From Halorussus caseinilyticus (GTDB lineage: Archaea; Halobacteriota; Halobacteria; Halobacteriales; Haladaptataceae), in contig NZ_CP119809.1 in the NCBI RefSeq assembly GCF_029338395.1, positions 1,302,001 through 1,366,000 on the forward strand: a stretch of 64,000 nt of DNA, written 5' to 3'. The notes under the pieces were generated by a model. The model was given only the letters and a program-made list of their open reading frames with translations. It was not told the origin of the DNA and ran no database searches. Positions 5,022 to 48,378 of this stretch are shown here, piece by piece. The position numbers were made by a program, and so were the translations under genes. How positions within the stretch are numbered: position 1 is the first letter of the stretch; each line of letters starts with the position of its first letter.

Positions 5022-5165
5022 AAACGGGGGATTCTCTTTCGTCGGAATAGACTGGTAGAGCGGGCTTTGAGAAATATTTTCCTTTCTATTAGAAATATAT
5101 AGGGTTCTTAAAGGGTTGTTCGTATTGTTCTCTCTCGGTGGTCGTCGCGTTTCGACCTCCCGCTC

Positions 5166-5459
5166 GCTACACGTCGTCTGAAACGGGAGTGAGACCGCAG
5201 AAACCCCGATGAAGAAGGTCTCGAAAGCCCCCGCCCGCTCGCGGTCGCTCAGTGACATCTCTCCGGTTCGCTTCGCTCACCTTCGAGAGGGGTCACTGAG
5301 ACGACCACGGCCTTCGGCCGCGAGCGGGCGGCCCCTTTATCCACCCGACGGCAGGTGGTCGGCCGGGCGCGTCGTGTGGTCTGGTCGGCCGGACGCGTCC
5401 CGTGGTTTGGTCGGCCGGGCGCGTCGTGTGGTCTGGTCGGCCGAGTGCGGGTATCGTCG
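5166..5459 (-). repeat. intergenic composite element, copy 1 (full length, minus orientation)
   Basis: This fills most of the 595-base gap between the molybdoenzyme gene and menF. Read on the minus strand it has 26-base direct repeats (5356-5459), a GGGTGGATAAAGGGG box, a long stem-loop (outer arms 5318-5331 and 5231-5244; inner arms 5292-5300 and 5248-5256), and a GGGGGCTTTC 3' module. A mini-ORF beginning MSLSDRERAGAF starts at 5258 on the minus strand. A degenerate second unit lies 75 bases after the first, near 5160-5170. Six more copies in the window share this plan (18.5, 22.8, 37.3, 39.0, 45.6 and 48.3 kb). Confidence 0.85.
5356..5459 (-). repeat. 26-base tandem direct repeats (about 3.5 units)
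   Basis: Units start at 5356, 5382, 5408 and 5434, an exact 26-base period. Each begins TGGTCGGCCG on the plus strand. On the minus strand they carry a version of the CGGCCGACCA core seen in the 5' module of the other element copies, where the period is also 26. Confidence 0.9.
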
Positions 5460-18496: not shown

Positions 18497-18527
18497 CGGT
18501 GGCGCGCTCCGACGGAGCGCGCCACCG
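18497..18527. repeat. perfect 14-bp hairpin
   Basis: CGGTGGCGCGCTCC and its exact reverse complement are separated by GAC. It sits at the 5' border of element copy 2, 90 bases after the upstream stop codon, and could act as an RNA hairpin terminating or stabilising the upstream transcript. Confidence 0.85.
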
Positions 18528-18720
18528 GCCGACCGAACCGTGGGACGCGCCCGGCCGAACCAACCACCAGCGAACGCTCGGCCGACCACCCGCCGTCGGG
18601 TGGATAAGGGGCGGGGGCTTTCGAGGCGTTCTTCGCTACGACTCTTGCGGTCGCACTCACACGTCCACCGATGCGTAGCGAGTAGACGGAGGCTTTCGAG
18701 ACGTTCGTAGTTACGACTGT
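18497..18720 (+). repeat. composite element copy 2 (stem-loop deleted)
   Basis: This fills the gap of about 370 bases between the DUF7524-like and DUF7523-like genes. It has units of 26 and 27 bases with the CGGCCGACC core, then GGGTGGATAAGGGG running straight into CGGGGGCTTTCGAGG, so the long stem-loop of copies 1, 4 and 6 is missing. A second GCTTTC unit follows 75 bases after the first (18617 and 18692). The mini-ORF frame is open over the first unit but meets TAG before the second. The rest of the gap (18407-18496 and 18721-18776) shows nothing recognisable. Confidence 0.8.
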
Positions 18721-18776
18721 CTAGACTCCCCGAACGCACCACATCGCTTTTGCTCGTCGCCTCCGTCGCTTCGCGC

Positions 18777-22771: not shown

Positions 22772-22972
22772 GGAGACGGCGCTTGGCCGACCAACCCACC
22801 GGCGACGACTCTCGGCCGACCAACCCACCGGCGACGACCGGCCGACCAACCGACGGGTACGCCCGCTGAATCAACCGACAAGGCGGGGGATTTCGAGACG
22901 TTCGTCACAGTGGTTCCCGCAGTCGTCACGGCTCAGTAAATGGTGCAGAGCGAACGAGAAACGACTTTCTCC
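22772..22972 (+). repeat. composite element copy 3 (stem-loop deleted)
   Basis: It follows the lipoprotein gene by about 45 bases and makes up most of a gap of about 320 bases. Three CGGCCGACCAACC units (one with a 3-base insert) are followed by ACAAGGCGGGGGATTTCGAGACGTTCG. The stem-loop is missing, as in copies 2 and 5. A degenerate second unit (GCAGAGCGAACGAG...GACTTTC) ends near 22972. The mini-ORF frame closes at a TAA (22937-22939). Confidence 0.75.
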
Positions 22973-24380: not shown

Positions 24381-24534
24381 GCTAGCTACGGGCTTGAGCC
24401 AACCAGAACCGCACGGCACCGCGCCGCGACCGCGGACCACACGCCTCCCCAACCGATTCGCTCACTCGCTCCGCTCCCGACGACCTCGCGCGAATGGGCG
24501 CGACACGCAAGCGGTCGCGCCCGCACGCGCCGGG
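24381..24534 (+). repeat. second intergenic repeat family, copy A
   Basis: It begins GCTAGCTACGGGCTTGAGCCAA and ends CGCACGCGCCGGG. It shares long identical blocks with 27292-27517 (GGGCTTGAGCCAA, CAGAACCGCAC, CCACACGCCTCCCCAACCGA, CGACGACCTCGCGCG). Near its 3' end a stem GGGCGCGAC / GTCGCGCCC can form. It lies between convergent genes (corA and an EamA transporter). The rest of the gap to 24710 holds nothing clear. Confidence 0.8.
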
Positions 24535-24710
24535 ACTGAAAGTTCGGAGAAGCACCGGACCAGAAGGGTCGGCGAAGCGCCGGTCACGAACGTTTAAACC
24601 AGAAGGCGGGACCAACTCGTCGCGGGCGTTTCGCGCGGTCGCTCGCGGGCCGGAGCGGACCGCCAGCCCGACTACCCGGAAACGGCTGAGCCAAGGCGTA
24701 CAGCCGAGAG

Positions 24711-25574
24711 TCACGACTCCGCACCGGTCTGGACCAACAGGACCCCGCCGAGGACGAGCGCACCCCCGACGACCGTCGCGGCCGTAATCGGTTCCCCCAG
24801 CACCGCCGCGCCGAGCAACAGCGTCACCACCGGTTCGACGGTACTCACGATGCTGGCCTCGCTCGCGCCGATTCGCCGGAGTCCGGCGAAGAACGCGAAG
24901 ATGGGGACCGCCGTAGCGACGACGGCGATAGCGGCGACTATCCCCCACTCGTAGCCGGTCGCTGGGGTCGAGAGCCGACCCGTCGCGGTGCCGAACACGA
25001 AAAACGACACCGCGGCGGCGGGGAGAACGTGGGCCGTGAGGACCTGCGGGTCCACCGTCGCCAGCGTCATCCGACTCGCGGTGATGTAGGCGGCGTACAC
25101 CACCGCGGCGGCGAGGACCACCGCGACCCCGCGCGGGTCCGCCCCGGCCGGGTCCGCGCCCGTCACGAGCGCCACGCCCGCGAGCGCGCCCCCGAGCGAC
25201 GCCACCGTCCGGCGGGTCACCGGTTCGCCGAGTCGCACCGCCGCCGCGCCGACGACGAACACCGGGTAGGTGTAGAGGACGATACCGACGAGTCCCGCGG
25301 TCATGAACGTCAGGCCCCAGAAGAAGAGACCGCTCATCGCCGCGTATCCCACCGCGCCGAGCGCGATTCCGGCCGCCAACGCGCGACCCCGAAGGGGGCG
25401 AAGGTCGCCGCGCGCGCCGAGGACGAGCCACACGACCAGCGTGGCGAGCAGGAACCGGAACGCCAGCACGGTCGGAATCGACAGTCCCGCGGCCGCGGCT
25501 AACTCCCCGAGTACCCCGAGCGTTCCGAATCCGGCGGCCGACACCAACACCAGCGCGAGACCGACGCGGTCCAT
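24711..25574 (-). CDS. EamA/DMT-family transporter
   Basis: 287 residues with ten hydrophobic helices arranged as two EamA repeats. The second repeat contains the typical end ASEASIVSTVEPVVTLLLGAAVLGEPITA. These carriers export or import small metabolites such as amino acids or nucleosides; the substrate cannot be read from the sequence. It is divergent from a second EamA gene with a 67-base gap, so the pair probably shares a control region. Confidence 0.88.
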   Translation of the reverse strand: MDRVGLALVLVSAAGFGTLGVLGELAAAAGLSIPTVLAFRFLLATLVVWLVLGARGDLRPLRGRALAAGIALGAVGYAAMSGLFFWGLTFMTAGLVGIVLYTYPVFVVGAAAVRLGEPVTRRTVASLGGALAGVALVTGADPAGADPRGVAVVLAAAVVYAAYITASRMTLATVDPQVLTAHVLPAAAVSFFVFGTATGRLSTPATGYEWGIVAAIAVVATAVPIFAFFAGLRRIGASEASIVSTVEPVVTLLLGAAVLGEPITAATVVGGALVLGGVLLVQTGAES

Positions 25575-25641
25575 GCGTCGGCTTTGGAGAGCGCACGTAA
25601 AACCGGTCCGACTAAACAGTCACCGTCCGACTTCCGGCACG

Positions 25642-26556
25642 ATGACGTGGTTGGTTACGCTCGAAGAGCGAATTCCCCCGATGGCCGCACTCATGGTCTC
25701 CGTCGTCGCCATCAGCACCAGCGCCATCCTCGTCCGGTTCAGCGACGCCCCGAGCGTCGTCAAGGCGCTGTATCGCGTGGTCTTCACCACGCTCCTGCTC
25801 GCGCCGTTCGCGGTCACGCGCTACCGCGAGGACCTCCGGATGCTGTCGGCCCGCGACGCCCTCGTCGCCGTCGTGACCGGGGTCGCGCTCGCGGCCCACT
25901 TCGCCACGTGGTTCGAGAGTCTGGAGTGGACCACCGTCGCCGCCAGCGTGACGCTCGTCCAGTCCCAACCGCTGTTCGTCGCGCTGGGCGCGGCGGTCCT
26001 GCTCGACGAGACCATCACCCGGCGGATGGTCGGCGGCATCCTCGTCGCCGTCGCGGGAATCGCGTTCATGTCGTTGGGCGGGTTCGTCTCGGGGGCCGTA
26101 CTCGCCGGAGCGCGCCCGCTCTACGGGAACGCCCTCGCGCTCGTCGGCGCGGTGATGGCCGCGGGCTACGTGCTTGCCGGTCGGTCGCTCCGCCAGCGAG
26201 TCGCGCTCGTCCCCTACGTCACCGTCGTCTACTCGGTGTGCGCAGTCGTCCTGCTCGGGGTCGCACTCGCCGACGGGACTACCGTCGCGCTCACGGCCTA
26301 CCCCCTCGAAGAGTGGCTACTCTTCGTCGGCATGGCGGTCGGTCCGGGAATCTTCGGTCACACGGTCATCAACTGGGCGCTGAAGTACGTCGAGTCGAGC
26401 GTCGTCAGCGTCACCTTGCTGGGCGAACCGGTCGGTTCGACCCTGCTGGCACTCGTCTTCCTCGCCGAGATACCCGACGCGTTCACCGTCGCTGGCGGCG
26501 CAGTCGTCCTCGCGGGTATCTACGTCACCGCGACGGGACGGCCGGGCGGCGCGTAG
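25642..26556 (+). CDS. EamA/DMT-family transporter
   Basis: 304 residues, ten helices in two EamA repeats. Typical segments are IVRFSDAPSVVKALYR-like at the first repeat (read as ILVRFSDAPSVVKALYR), LEWTTVAASVTLVQSQPLFVA, and ALKYVESSVVSVTLLGEPVG near the C-terminus. The ATG at 25642 follows the intergenic region shared with the divergent transporter. The two proteins differ enough that this is not a recent duplication. Confidence 0.88.
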   Translation: MTWLVTLEERIPPMAALMVSVVAISTSAILVRFSDAPSVVKALYRVVFTTLLLAPFAVTRYREDLRMLSARDALVAVVTGVALAAHFATWFESLEWTTVAASVTLVQSQPLFVALGAAVLLDETITRRMVGGILVAVAGIAFMSLGGFVSGAVLAGARPLYGNALALVGAVMAAGYVLAGRSLRQRVALVPYVTVVYSVCAVVLLGVALADGTTVALTAYPLEEWLLFVGMAVGPGIFGHTVINWALKYVESSVVSVTLLGEPVGSTLLALVFLAEIPDAFTVAGGAVVLAGIYVTATGRPGGA

Positions 26557-26625
26557 GGGCGCTTGCCGTCACAGTCTCCGGATAGACGACACGGTATTAT
26601 CACGATTCGGTCCGTCGCGGCCGGT

Positions 26626-27108
26626 ATGGGAAAAATCAACGAGGAATCACTCGATTGGTCAACCACCGAACGAGGCGAGGCGGAGTTTCGGCGAAAGCAG
26701 TTGGGGGACGCCGCGGGCGGCGAGGAACTCGGGTGCAGTCTGTACGAGATTCCGCCGGGCCGACGCTCGTGGCCGTACCACTACCACACCGGGAACGAGG
26801 AAGCGATGTACGTTCTCGCGGGCGAGGGAACGCTCCGACTCGGCGGCGAGACGACGACGCTGACCGAGGGCGACTACGTGGCGCTCCCCGCCGACGAGAG
26901 CAGTGCCCACCGCGTCGTCAACGACGGCGACGACACCCTGCGCTACCTGATGGTCTCCACGATGGACGACCCGGACGTGACCGTCTACCCCGACTCGGGG
27001 AAAGTCGGCGTGTTCGCCGGGTCGCCGCCGGGCGGACGCGGGCGTCGGAGCGTCCACGGCTACTACGACATCGACGACGACGTGGACTACTGGCGCGGAG
27101 AGGAATAG
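26626..27108 (+). CDS. cupin-domain protein
   Basis: 160 residues with one cupin barrel. The first cupin motif is WPYHYHTGNEEAMYVLAGEG (two His and a Glu as metal ligands) and the second is EGDYVALPADESSAHRVVND. The C-terminal part (KVGVFAGSPPGG...VHGYYDIDDDVDYWRG) matches a known cupin family with a carbohydrate-binding-like or regulatory role. A TATA-like GGTATTATC lies about 30 bases before the ATG. The metabolite or reaction is unknown. Confidence 0.85.
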   Translation: MGKINEESLDWSTTERGEAEFRRKQLGDAAGGEELGCSLYEIPPGRRSWPYHYHTGNEEAMYVLAGEGTLRLGGETTTLTEGDYVALPADESSAHRVVNDGDDTLRYLMVSTMDDPDVTVYPDSGKVGVFAGSPPGGRGRRSVHGYYDIDDDVDYWRGEE

Positions 27109-27291
27109 CTATCAAATTCTTAGAGAAACGTTTTCACGTCTTTCGCAACGGTCTGTAATTGTCACGTCCGCGTCGTGGTGACAGTCCGGAGCGGGGAATA
27201 GCTCGTCGTGATGGGGGTTTCCGGAACGCGAACGACTTTTCGGGGGCTTCGGTCGAGACGATACGTTACTGTGGACCGGGAAATCGAGAGA
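27109..27291. other. intergenic, after the cupin gene
   Basis: A short AT-rich stretch follows the stop (27113-27135, AAATTCTTAGAGAAACG), then unremarkable sequence up to repeat copy B. No gene or stable hairpin is evident. Confidence 0.4.
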
Positions 27292-27517
27292 GCTAGCTTC
27301 GGGCTTGAGCCAATCAGAACCGCACCGCACCGCGACCGCAGGCCACACGCCTCCCCAACCGATTGCGCGTCTCGGTCGTCACTCCCTTCGGTCGTTCCTC
27401 TCTGCGATGCTCATCCACCGGCAGACAACCCGCGTCTGCCGAGCAGTCGGCGCACAGCGCCGACGACCTCGCGCGGGTGGGCGCGGCCACTCGCGGGCCG
27501 CGCCCGCACGCGCCGGG
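27292..27517 (+). repeat. second intergenic repeat family, copy B
   Basis: Same ends and shared blocks as 24381-24534, but 72 bases longer because of an insertion in the middle (about 27366-27463). Its 3' stem is GGGCGCGGCC / GGCCGCGCCC, against GGGCGCGAC / GTCGCGCCC in copy A: an A-T pair replaced by G-C. Like copy A it lies between convergent genes, here the cupin gene and DNA ligase. Confidence 0.8.
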
Positions 27518-37310: not shown

Positions 37311-37680
37311 GCACTCGACCGACCAACCGACAGCGAACGCTCGACCGACCAACCGCCGGGGCGGGATAAAGGGGCCGCGCGCTCGCGGGCCGTAGGCCCG
37401 TGGTCGCCTCAGCGACCCCTATCCGAGCGAACGCAGTGAGCGAGGATATGTCGCTGAGCGACCGCGAGCGCGCGGGGGCTTTCTGGGCGTTCGTTACGAC
37501 GGTTCTTGCGGTCGCATTCACCGTCCTGACGACGCATAGCGAGCGCGCGGGGGCTTTCTGGGCATTCTTCGCCACGATTCTGGCGGTTGCGGTGCGGTTG
37601 CGGAGCGAGCGGACGGGGGTTTCGAAGCGTTCATCGACGTGGTTTCGATGGCGAGAGAGTCAGCGACCGCGAGAGAGCTA
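37311..37680 (+). repeat. composite element copy 4 (full length, three units)
   Basis: It follows the 98-residue gene by 55 bases. The 26-base direct repeats lead to GGGCGGGATAAAGGGG and then a stem-loop: outer arms 37375-37388 and 37462-37475 (CCGCGCGCTCGCGG and complement), inner arms 37408-37416 and 37450-37458, with TATCC/GGATA above. Outer and inner pairs differ from copy 1 by compensatory changes. Units start 75 and then 65 bases apart. The mini-ORF from the ATG at 37448 is open for two units. The rest of the gap to 37996 is AT-rich (37850-37905) apart from the hairpin at 37754. Confidence 0.85.
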
Positions 37681-38945: not shown

Positions 38946-38987
38946 GTCGTCGCGTTCGTTCGGTCTTCCCGGTTCGAAATCGGAAGT

Positions 38988-39077
38988 CGTCGTGACGAAC
39001 GCCCGGAAAGCCCCCGCCCCGGCGGTTGGTCGGCCGAGCGTTGGCTGTCGGTTGGTCGGCCGAGCGCCGCGACGAGA
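38988..39077 (-). repeat. composite element copy 5 (stem-loop deleted, minus orientation)
   Basis: Between the convergent 38397 gene and the sugar ABC ATPase. On the minus strand it reads CGGCCGACCAACCGACAGCC...CGGCCGACCAACCGCCGGGG (26-base period), then CGGGGGCTTTCCGGGCGTTCG, with no stem-loop between. Confidence 0.8.
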
Positions 39078-45501: not shown

Positions 45502-45540
45502 CTGCCCCGAATCGTACCGGTGGCGGTCCCACCAGTTGCG

Positions 45541-45810
45541 CTCGGTGACACAACCGCCAGCGAACGCTCGGCCGACCAACCGACAGCGAACGCCCGACTG
45601 ACCAACCGAAGGGGTGGATAAAGGGGCCGCCCGCTCGCGTCCACTTCAGTCGTCTCAGCGACCCCTATCCGAGCGAGCGAAGCGAGCGAGGATATGTCGC
45701 TGAGCGACCGCGAGCGGGCGGGGGCTTTCGAGGACTTCTTCGCTACGGTTTTCGCGGTCACAACACTGTTGCAGAGCGAGCGGGCGGGGGCTTTCTGGGC
45801 GTTCTCTCCG
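45541..45810 (+). repeat. composite element copy 6 (full length)
   Basis: It begins about 65 bases after fumC. 26-base repeats (CGGCCGACCAACCGACAGCG...) lead to GGGGTGGATAAAGGGG. The stem-loop has outer arms 45627-45639 and 45709-45721 and inner arms 45654-45662 and 45696-45704 with an apical GAGCGAGCGAAGCGAGCGA. The mini-ORF MSLSDRERAGAFEDFFATVF starts at the ATG at 45694. A second unit begins 66 bases after the first. The frame then runs into Thr/Pro-rich sequence up to 46053, overlapping the next gene, so that tail is probably not coding. Confidence 0.85.
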
Positions 45811-46019
45811 ACTCCGACGACCGCAGAATCAACAGTGACGACTCTGACTCCGACGACCGAGACCGCAGGAACCGCGGAAACAGCAACTTCAACACCGACG
45901 ACAACCACGACGACTCCGACGACCGCAAAAACGTACACTACCACAGAGACGAACCCAGCACGAAAACCCACCCGAATCGCCCACCAACAGTTTCAGACTG
46001 GCTACCGTCCGACTAGTCC

Positions 46020-48240: not shown

Positions 48241-48354
48241 TCGGGAAGCGCGACAGACCAACCAGACCACGGGGCGGGATAAAGGGGCCGCCCGCTCGCG
48301 GCTGGGGGCTTTCGAGGACCTCTTTCTGGCGATTTCGGCGGTCGCAGTGCTGTG
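48241..48354 (+). repeat. composite element copy 7 (partial stem)
   Basis: One short 5' unit (GACCAACCAGACCACGGGGCGGG), then GATAAAGGGGCCGCCCGCTCGCGGC running directly into TGGGGGCTTTCGAGG: only the first arm of the stem is kept. The frame in the 3' module (GAFEDLFLAISAVAVL) ends with TGA at 48353-48355. It lies upstream of the membrane protein gene on the opposite strand. Confidence 0.75.
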
Positions 48355-48378
48355 ACGTAGCGGAGGAGAACGACCTGA

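Follow-up and report, generated by a model that had tools for sequence, protein, structure and literature searches.

Two related blocks between convergent genes

The window analyzed here is the whole stretch of 64,000 nucleotides from the genome of Halorussus caseinilyticus (G000 below). Two blocks in it, at 24381-24534 (copy 1) and 27292-27517 (copy 2), are members of one dispersed family of non-coding repeats. Copy 1 lies between CorA-like and EamA-like genes and copy 2 between cupin-like and ATP-dependent DNA ligase-like genes (names from reading the translations). The flanking genes are convergent in both cases, and the sense gene upstream of the copies lies at 42 and 178 nt. An earlier note, made from the letters of the window, had reported the two blocks as related. 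Its coordinates were right and the similarity is far above chance: when copy 1 was used as a query against its own genome, 46 further places were found at E ≤ 1, most of them below 1e-15. The copies are 154 and 226 bp long and have in common blocks of 44 nt at 93% and 46 nt at 91% identity. Their features are as follows.

24381-24534, minus strand: element copy 1, 154 nt, a shortened derivative (covariance-model match of 143.4 bits and comparison with insert-bearing copies)
24496-24522, minus strand: P2 hairpin of copy 1, GGGCGCGAC/GTCGCGCCC, 9 bp (sequence; covarying helix 2)
24487-24492, minus strand: P1 3' strand of copy 1, partner 24524-24529 (helix 1 in 111 copies; 36 cross-genus copies)
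24455-24483, minus strand: remnant of the P3 hairpin of copy 1 (sequence comparison)
24444-24454, minus strand: GGTTGGGGAGG block of copy 1, the most conserved unpaired stretch (alignment A2 and 36 cross-genus copies)
24381-24400, minus strand: Halorussus 3' module of copy 1, GGCTCAAGCCCGTAGCTAGC (genome copies of TCAAGCCTGAAGCTAGC)
27292-27517, minus strand: full-length element copy 2 of 226 nt, which carries two additional hairpins
27479-27505, minus strand: P2 hairpin of copy 2, GGGCGCGGCC/GGCCGCGCCC, 10 bp (sequence; helix 2)
27471-27476, minus strand: P1 3' strand of copy 2, partner 27507-27512 (helix 1; cross-genus copies)
27417-27467, minus strand: two-hairpin insert of copy 2, absent from copy 1 (hairpins 27420-27440 and 27446-27464)
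27361-27416, minus strand: P3 hairpin of copy 2 in extended form, G.A-stepped and closed by a GAA loop (fold and family pattern)
27350-27360, minus strand: GGTTGGGGAGG block of copy 2 (alignment A2 and 36 cross-genus copies)
27292-27311, minus strand: Halorussus 3' module of copy 2, GGCTCAAGCCCGAAGCTAGC (genome copies of the module)

The 72-bp difference in length, which had been described as an insertion, is real, but these bases were probably lost from copy 1 rather than gained by copy 2, to judge from the sequence comparison. Copy 1 lacks both extra hairpins as well as the 5' half of P3 but retains the left edge of the insert, GAGGTCGTCGG, and the same two hairpins are present in other copies (L011, L023, L026, and C1:792255).

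Size and spread of the family

The repeats are about 90-230 bases long, their hosts are salt-loving archaea, and a single genome carries up to about 150 copies or more. A covariance model (R1) built on 20 copies gave at least 149 matches in the H. caseinilyticus genome, 131 on C1 and 18 on C2, the chromosome and a plasmid both carrying the family. At least 42 copies were found in each of the genomes G000, G001, G002, G009, G010, and G016, and 72 in H. pelagicus (G004). The family was matched in 28 of 40 relatives, and among the sampled Halobacteria in 54 of 145 genomes and 22 of 58 genera. The congener G008 yielded no copy in the search of the 40 relatives, and copy number within the genus Halorussus thus ranges from 0 to at least 149. 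Within the H. caseinilyticus genome, the closest copies agree at about 90-96% of aligned positions, so there is no sign of a very recent burst.

Rfam gave no meaningful match at the gathering score or at E ≤ 5. The phage collections contained no family match and the viral collections no match to the full P3 pattern; six viral matches to a short pattern were discarded as chance, the fold and the tail being missing. Neither the motif string nor a description of the family was found among open-licence PMC papers, and the family is apparently undescribed so far; given that scope, an earlier description elsewhere is possible.

Folded strand and covariation

Across the family, the letters vary freely, and one strand retains a common, unusual fold. 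The folded strand is the minus strand of the window. Read on the window strand, 20 aligned copies folded weakly (-25 kcal/mol), as against -41 on the opposite strand, which forms G-U pairs at the cells where the window strand gives A-C; the wobble cells of P1 and P2 amounted to 65 G-U vs. 5 A-C. The core of about 90-110 nt consists, in order, of P1 enclosing P2, then P3, and then a GGYTGGGGAGG.GTGTGG tail. The sequence of P2 differs genus by genus, with the hairpin retained, and pairing is kept at orthologous positions despite sequence turnover.

The paired change that had been noticed in the 3' stem of the window copies, GGGCGCGAC/GTCGCGCCC vs. GGGCGCGGCC/GGCCGCGCCC, is as stated and is one of many in the family. 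In 111 copies, which were aligned to the model and therefore lean toward its structure, 95.7% of the cells were paired (89.6% after shuffling) and covariation was 0.221 (0.131 after shuffling), a score reached by none of 500 shuffles; sliding the partners by 1-3 columns left 22-53% paired. Both sides had changed in 27 of the 35 pairs, so the objection that the earlier note had raised against its own proposal, that further copies might show no paired changes, fails. When nearest copies were compared, 104 stem differences were double and still paired, vs. 42 that were single and pair-breaking. Helix 1 (P1) was paired in 97.8% of the cells in the 111 copies and in 100% of those in 36 copies from several genera. 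In the latter set, P1 and P3 kept 15 pairs, Watson-Crick or wobble, in all cases, with covariation of 0.510 vs. 0.254 after shuffling and never above 0.144 in slid versions, and the GGTTGGGGAGG columns were invariant or nearly so here and in alignment A2.

The G.A-step hairpin P3

From P1/P2 to GGTTGGGG, the core almost always forms a hairpin, in several architectures, and this mostly consists of repeated two-base-pair steps and tandem G.A, capped by a GNA triloop. The commonest form has 34 nt: GAY-GA-NN-GA-NN-GA-NN-GNA-NN-GA-NN-GA-NN-GA-RTC. Among 68 distinct 34-nt segments picked by their flanking anchors and length alone, the GNA loop was present in 60, each step had G.A in at least 54, and about a dozen were in another register with A.A and G.A/GCA loops. 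The 36 cross-genus copies had 215 of 216 G.A pairs, some of these positions being required by the selection of the copies. In 66 distinct sequences from 12 genomes and seven genera, selected only by the G.A scaffold and GNA loop, the free positions were 97.4% paired (64.3% after shuffling).

With RNA energies, the P3 z-score was -1.65 for the minus strand vs. -0.96, and the minus strand had the lower energy in 80% of the copies; with DNA energies, the values were -0.45 vs. -0.47 and the strands were not separated. This leans toward RNA. Tandem sheared G.A pairs, like C(GNA)G triloops, have great stability in DNA, whereas RNAs usually prefer GNRA tetraloops. The G.A-step hairpin is an unusual motif that poses the question of RNA or DNA.

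Genomic position and orientation

Genes were called with a codon-usage caller, which reproduces the expected open reading frames around the window copies, and 108 copies were placed. No called gene overlapped 107 of them; the remaining one belongs to a duplicated pair on a plasmid, and the call that overlaps it continues up to the end of the stretch. Both neighbors were called for 102 copies, of which 26 were in convergent, 30 in divergent, and 46 in co-directional settings (orientation classes 30/26/25/21). The convergent genes pointed out in the earlier note are thus true of both window copies but not of the family, and their setting is coincidental. The gene on the 5' side was sense in 47 cases and antisense in 57, and stem integrity did not differ between the two (0.975 vs. 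0.972; Mann-Whitney p = 0.93). A replication-strand bias was also sought, and no orientation trend was seen along the chromosome. The copies with a usable context are therefore intergenic and randomly oriented, and neither where they lie nor which way they point is related to the transcription of genes.

Random orientation and equal intactness whatever the transcription of the neighbors argue against a terminator, a riboswitch, or an element of an mRNA. Because the stems are equally intact with or without possible transcription from a neighbor, they do not establish the RNA of the earlier note's "structured RNA or mobile non-coding element," and a single DNA strand could function in the same fold; the structure itself is strongly supported by the paired changes.

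The flanks showed only two signals: T is enriched in a patch that precedes the 5' end by about 6-13 nt, and the stretch that follows GCTAGC is rich in pyrimidines. Many copies in the H. caseinilyticus genome also have, some 25-35 nt before the 5' end, a second partial GGCGCGYGC and sequence resembling TTTTCCACC (e.g., C1:2106523, C1:2533506, and C1:3364061). Neighboring copies less than 2.7 kb apart in this genome were facing (+,-) in 12 cases, on the same strand in five, and (-,+) in none, usually around one short gene (e.g., L040, L054, L102, and L143); those in H. pelagicus pointed in the same direction, 2 vs. 0. Facing pairs were considered as one composite transposon, and this was rejected because the enclosed genes differ.

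Ends and modular structure

The family has no terminal inverted repeats: in alignments of 20-108 copies, the ends were GCTAGC... and CCGGCGCG..., which are mutually unrelated. P1/P2 begins within a few nucleotides of one end, and a short palindrome, TTCA-TGAA, lies near the other. In Halorussus, the core is followed by a lineage-specific 3' module, made up of GCGGT repeats and then TTCAAGCCTGAAGCTAGC, and by a pyrimidine-rich tail; in other genera, it is followed by unrelated sequence. The module TCAAGCCTGAAGCTAGC has 84 copies in the genome at ≤ 1 mismatch. It also occurs alone or in tandem with a spacing of 36-79 bp (e.g., 163803/163874, 884550/884621, and 3364025/3364061 on C1 of G000), and the element is thus modular in Halorussus. 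In G111 and G028/G103 (L294-L329), further dispersed repeats, such as GGGACTGAAAGGGGACGTG and TTTTTAGTCCAGGTTTTTGC, lie 3' of the core.

Filled and empty sites and candidate enzymes

The presence or absence of copies differs between species at the same junctions, which fits a mobile non-coding element. The CorA-EamA junction carries the element in G000, G004, and G006 and is empty in G007 and G009, and the junction downstream of the DNA ligase carries it in G000, G006, G013, and G014 and is empty in G007, G009, G011, and G016. At the ligase junction, comparison of G013 with G009, with boundaries drawn by eye, showed flanks conserved on both sides and an insert of about 165 bp, about 30 nt of it beyond GCTAGC, with a repeat of at most GCT at both edges; this was the only filled/empty pair with good flanks, and a deletion in G009 is possible. 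Together with the copy number, random orientation, intergenic positions, and presence on chromosome and plasmid, these sites support mobility, and the family is likely a mobile non-coding element, as the earlier note had suggested.

Movement does not appear recent everywhere. In G003 and G014, which are 93% identical, three of the four sites in 400 kb have a copy in both genomes. They differ at the fourth alone, where G003 retains no more than the 3' end of the copy, and movement was therefore not recent there. At the site A307614/B316103 (L240 and L260) of these genomes, the part from P1 to P3 has been replaced as a block, with an identical 3' module; the intergenic flanks and the 5' half of the element are unalike there, and its 3' end is identical.

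No consistent transposase partner was found. A Y1 transposase (PF01797) is absent from G000, G001, G002, G009, G010, and G016, and such an enzyme was therefore rejected as the current mobilizer in G000. A model search of nine TnpB-family loci of the H. caseinilyticus genome and 10 Y1 loci of relatives gave one true match, which was a neighboring copy. The element never forms the end of the TnpB or Y1 loci examined, and it adjoins tnpB at one locus only.

Comparison with known systems

REP/BIME sequences, which are served by RAYT (Y1) transposases, are intergenic hairpins whose structure is recognized on one strand. The present family likewise forms intergenic hairpins, but it is much larger, multi-hairpin, and of other sequence, and its richest genome has no Y1 transposase. 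It resembles the omega RNAs of IS200/IS605 (sotRNA, RF02656/RF02657), which are linked to mobile elements, in being structured and haloarchaeal; however, it did not match RF02656/RF02657 (gathering score, E ≤ 5) and is not at the 3' end of tnpB. The palindrome-associated transposable elements (PATEs) of Haloquadratum walsbyi derive from the ends of IS605-type transposons (PMC3119063). Like PATEs, the family is small, non-coding, haloarchaeal, and heterogeneous among copies, with near-terminal palindromes and without terminal inverted repeats or a clear target duplication (PMC3119063). Unlike them, it has a conserved multi-hairpin core and the G.A-step hairpin, and the core showed no similarity to the examined TnpB or Y1 loci. 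With haloarchaeal MITEs and SMRs it has in common the lack of a transposase, intergenic location, and many copies, but these have terminal inverted repeats (PMC3119063), whereas the family ends, GCTAGC and CCGGCGCG, are unrelated. MITEs share their terminal inverted repeats with a full transposon; in an unsystematic look, no full transposon with the family ends was seen.

Possible mode of spread and retention

How the copies spread and are retained can only be inferred. The reading that we favor, at about an even chance, is a non-autonomous interspersed haloarchaeal element that is kept by structure-specific recognition of one folded strand. Copies would spread and persist because a putative factor recognizes the shape of the folded single strand more than its sequence. 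The recognized form would most likely be single-stranded DNA during replication or transposition, and less likely a transcript. Recognition may depend on the series of tandem G.A steps, on the GNA triloop, and on the G-rich tail, which is fixed, with the P2 sequence free to vary provided that pairing holds. If this is right, much of the intergenic space in many haloarchaea carries one structured family that seemingly has no name, Rfam model, or known enzyme. It would also be a warning that covariation, though often read as proving a functional RNA, can come from a dispersed element whose orientation is indifferent to transcription. Only tentatively, we go further and suggest a new class of archaeal mobile nucleic-acid element, recognized purely by the three-dimensional shape of a single strand and served by a putative enzyme. 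The key would be the G.A-step hairpin with its GNA triloop, in which nearly all Watson-Crick letters are free and the G.A scaffold is fixed.

A structured non-coding RNA in many copies is a possible but rather doubtful alternative. Here, transcription would yield the minus strand, whose fold would bind a protein or act in trans, and dispersal would be secondary as with SINEs. The covariation is strong, like that of known structured RNAs, the RNA energies favor the minus strand for P3, and RNA typically has tandem G.A steps and G-U pairs, the former also suiting archaeal RNA-binding proteins. However, no TATA-like box was seen at a constant spacing before the 5' end in the 108 copies, orientation is random, the stems are intact even where neighbors do not transcribe that strand, and the P3 loops are GNA triloops, not GNRA tetraloops. 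Additionally, the reverse transcriptase domain RVT_1 (PF00078) was found in none of 18 Halorussus genomes, and SINE-like retroposition was rejected on this ground.

It is unlikely that the family is a fixed DNA element of the chromosome that does housekeeping work in the nucleoid, in supercoiling, or in insulation, with REP-like effects and selection at each site. This would suit the old copies common to several species, the pairing kept at orthologous positions, and the non-random arrangement of copies within 2.7 kb, but the family is absent from G008 and most sampled genera and its copy number varies widely within one genus. Still less probable are neutral leftover repeats whose hairpins were perfected by mutation alone, through template switching or gene conversion, with the fold unselected. 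Palindrome correction yields double changes without selection, and the block replacement at A307614/B316103 would agree with it; however, template switching would convert the G.A mismatches of P3 to complements, and the strict G.A scaffold therefore argues against it, as do the strongly one-stranded wobble pairs. Cis-regulation of neighboring genes by a 3' UTR element, terminator, or attenuator, which the window copies 3' of a sense gene and the pyrimidine-rich tail might suggest, is largely refuted by random orientation, with no consistent position or strand relative to a gene, 30 divergent contexts, and neighbor genes that vary between copies where looked at, and is hardly credible.

Other conserved intergenic sequences in the window

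A separate conserved block resembling an RNA gene lies at 24587-24720 on the plus strand, between the CorA-like and EamA-like genes, with a TATA-like GTTTAAA followed by GGGACCAACTC...GACCGCCAGTCCGACTACCCCGAGAGGGCTGAGCC. It is kept in many Halorussus species and occurs elsewhere in their genomes too. A further family of intergenic repeats, in which GGGCGGGGGCTTTCGAGGCGTTC is accompanied by GACCAACCG and GGATAAAGGGGCCGC blocks, is found in the window on both strands, at 5156-5459, 18510-18730, 22806-22927, 37311-37607, 38981-39069, 45538-45828, and 48256-48362.
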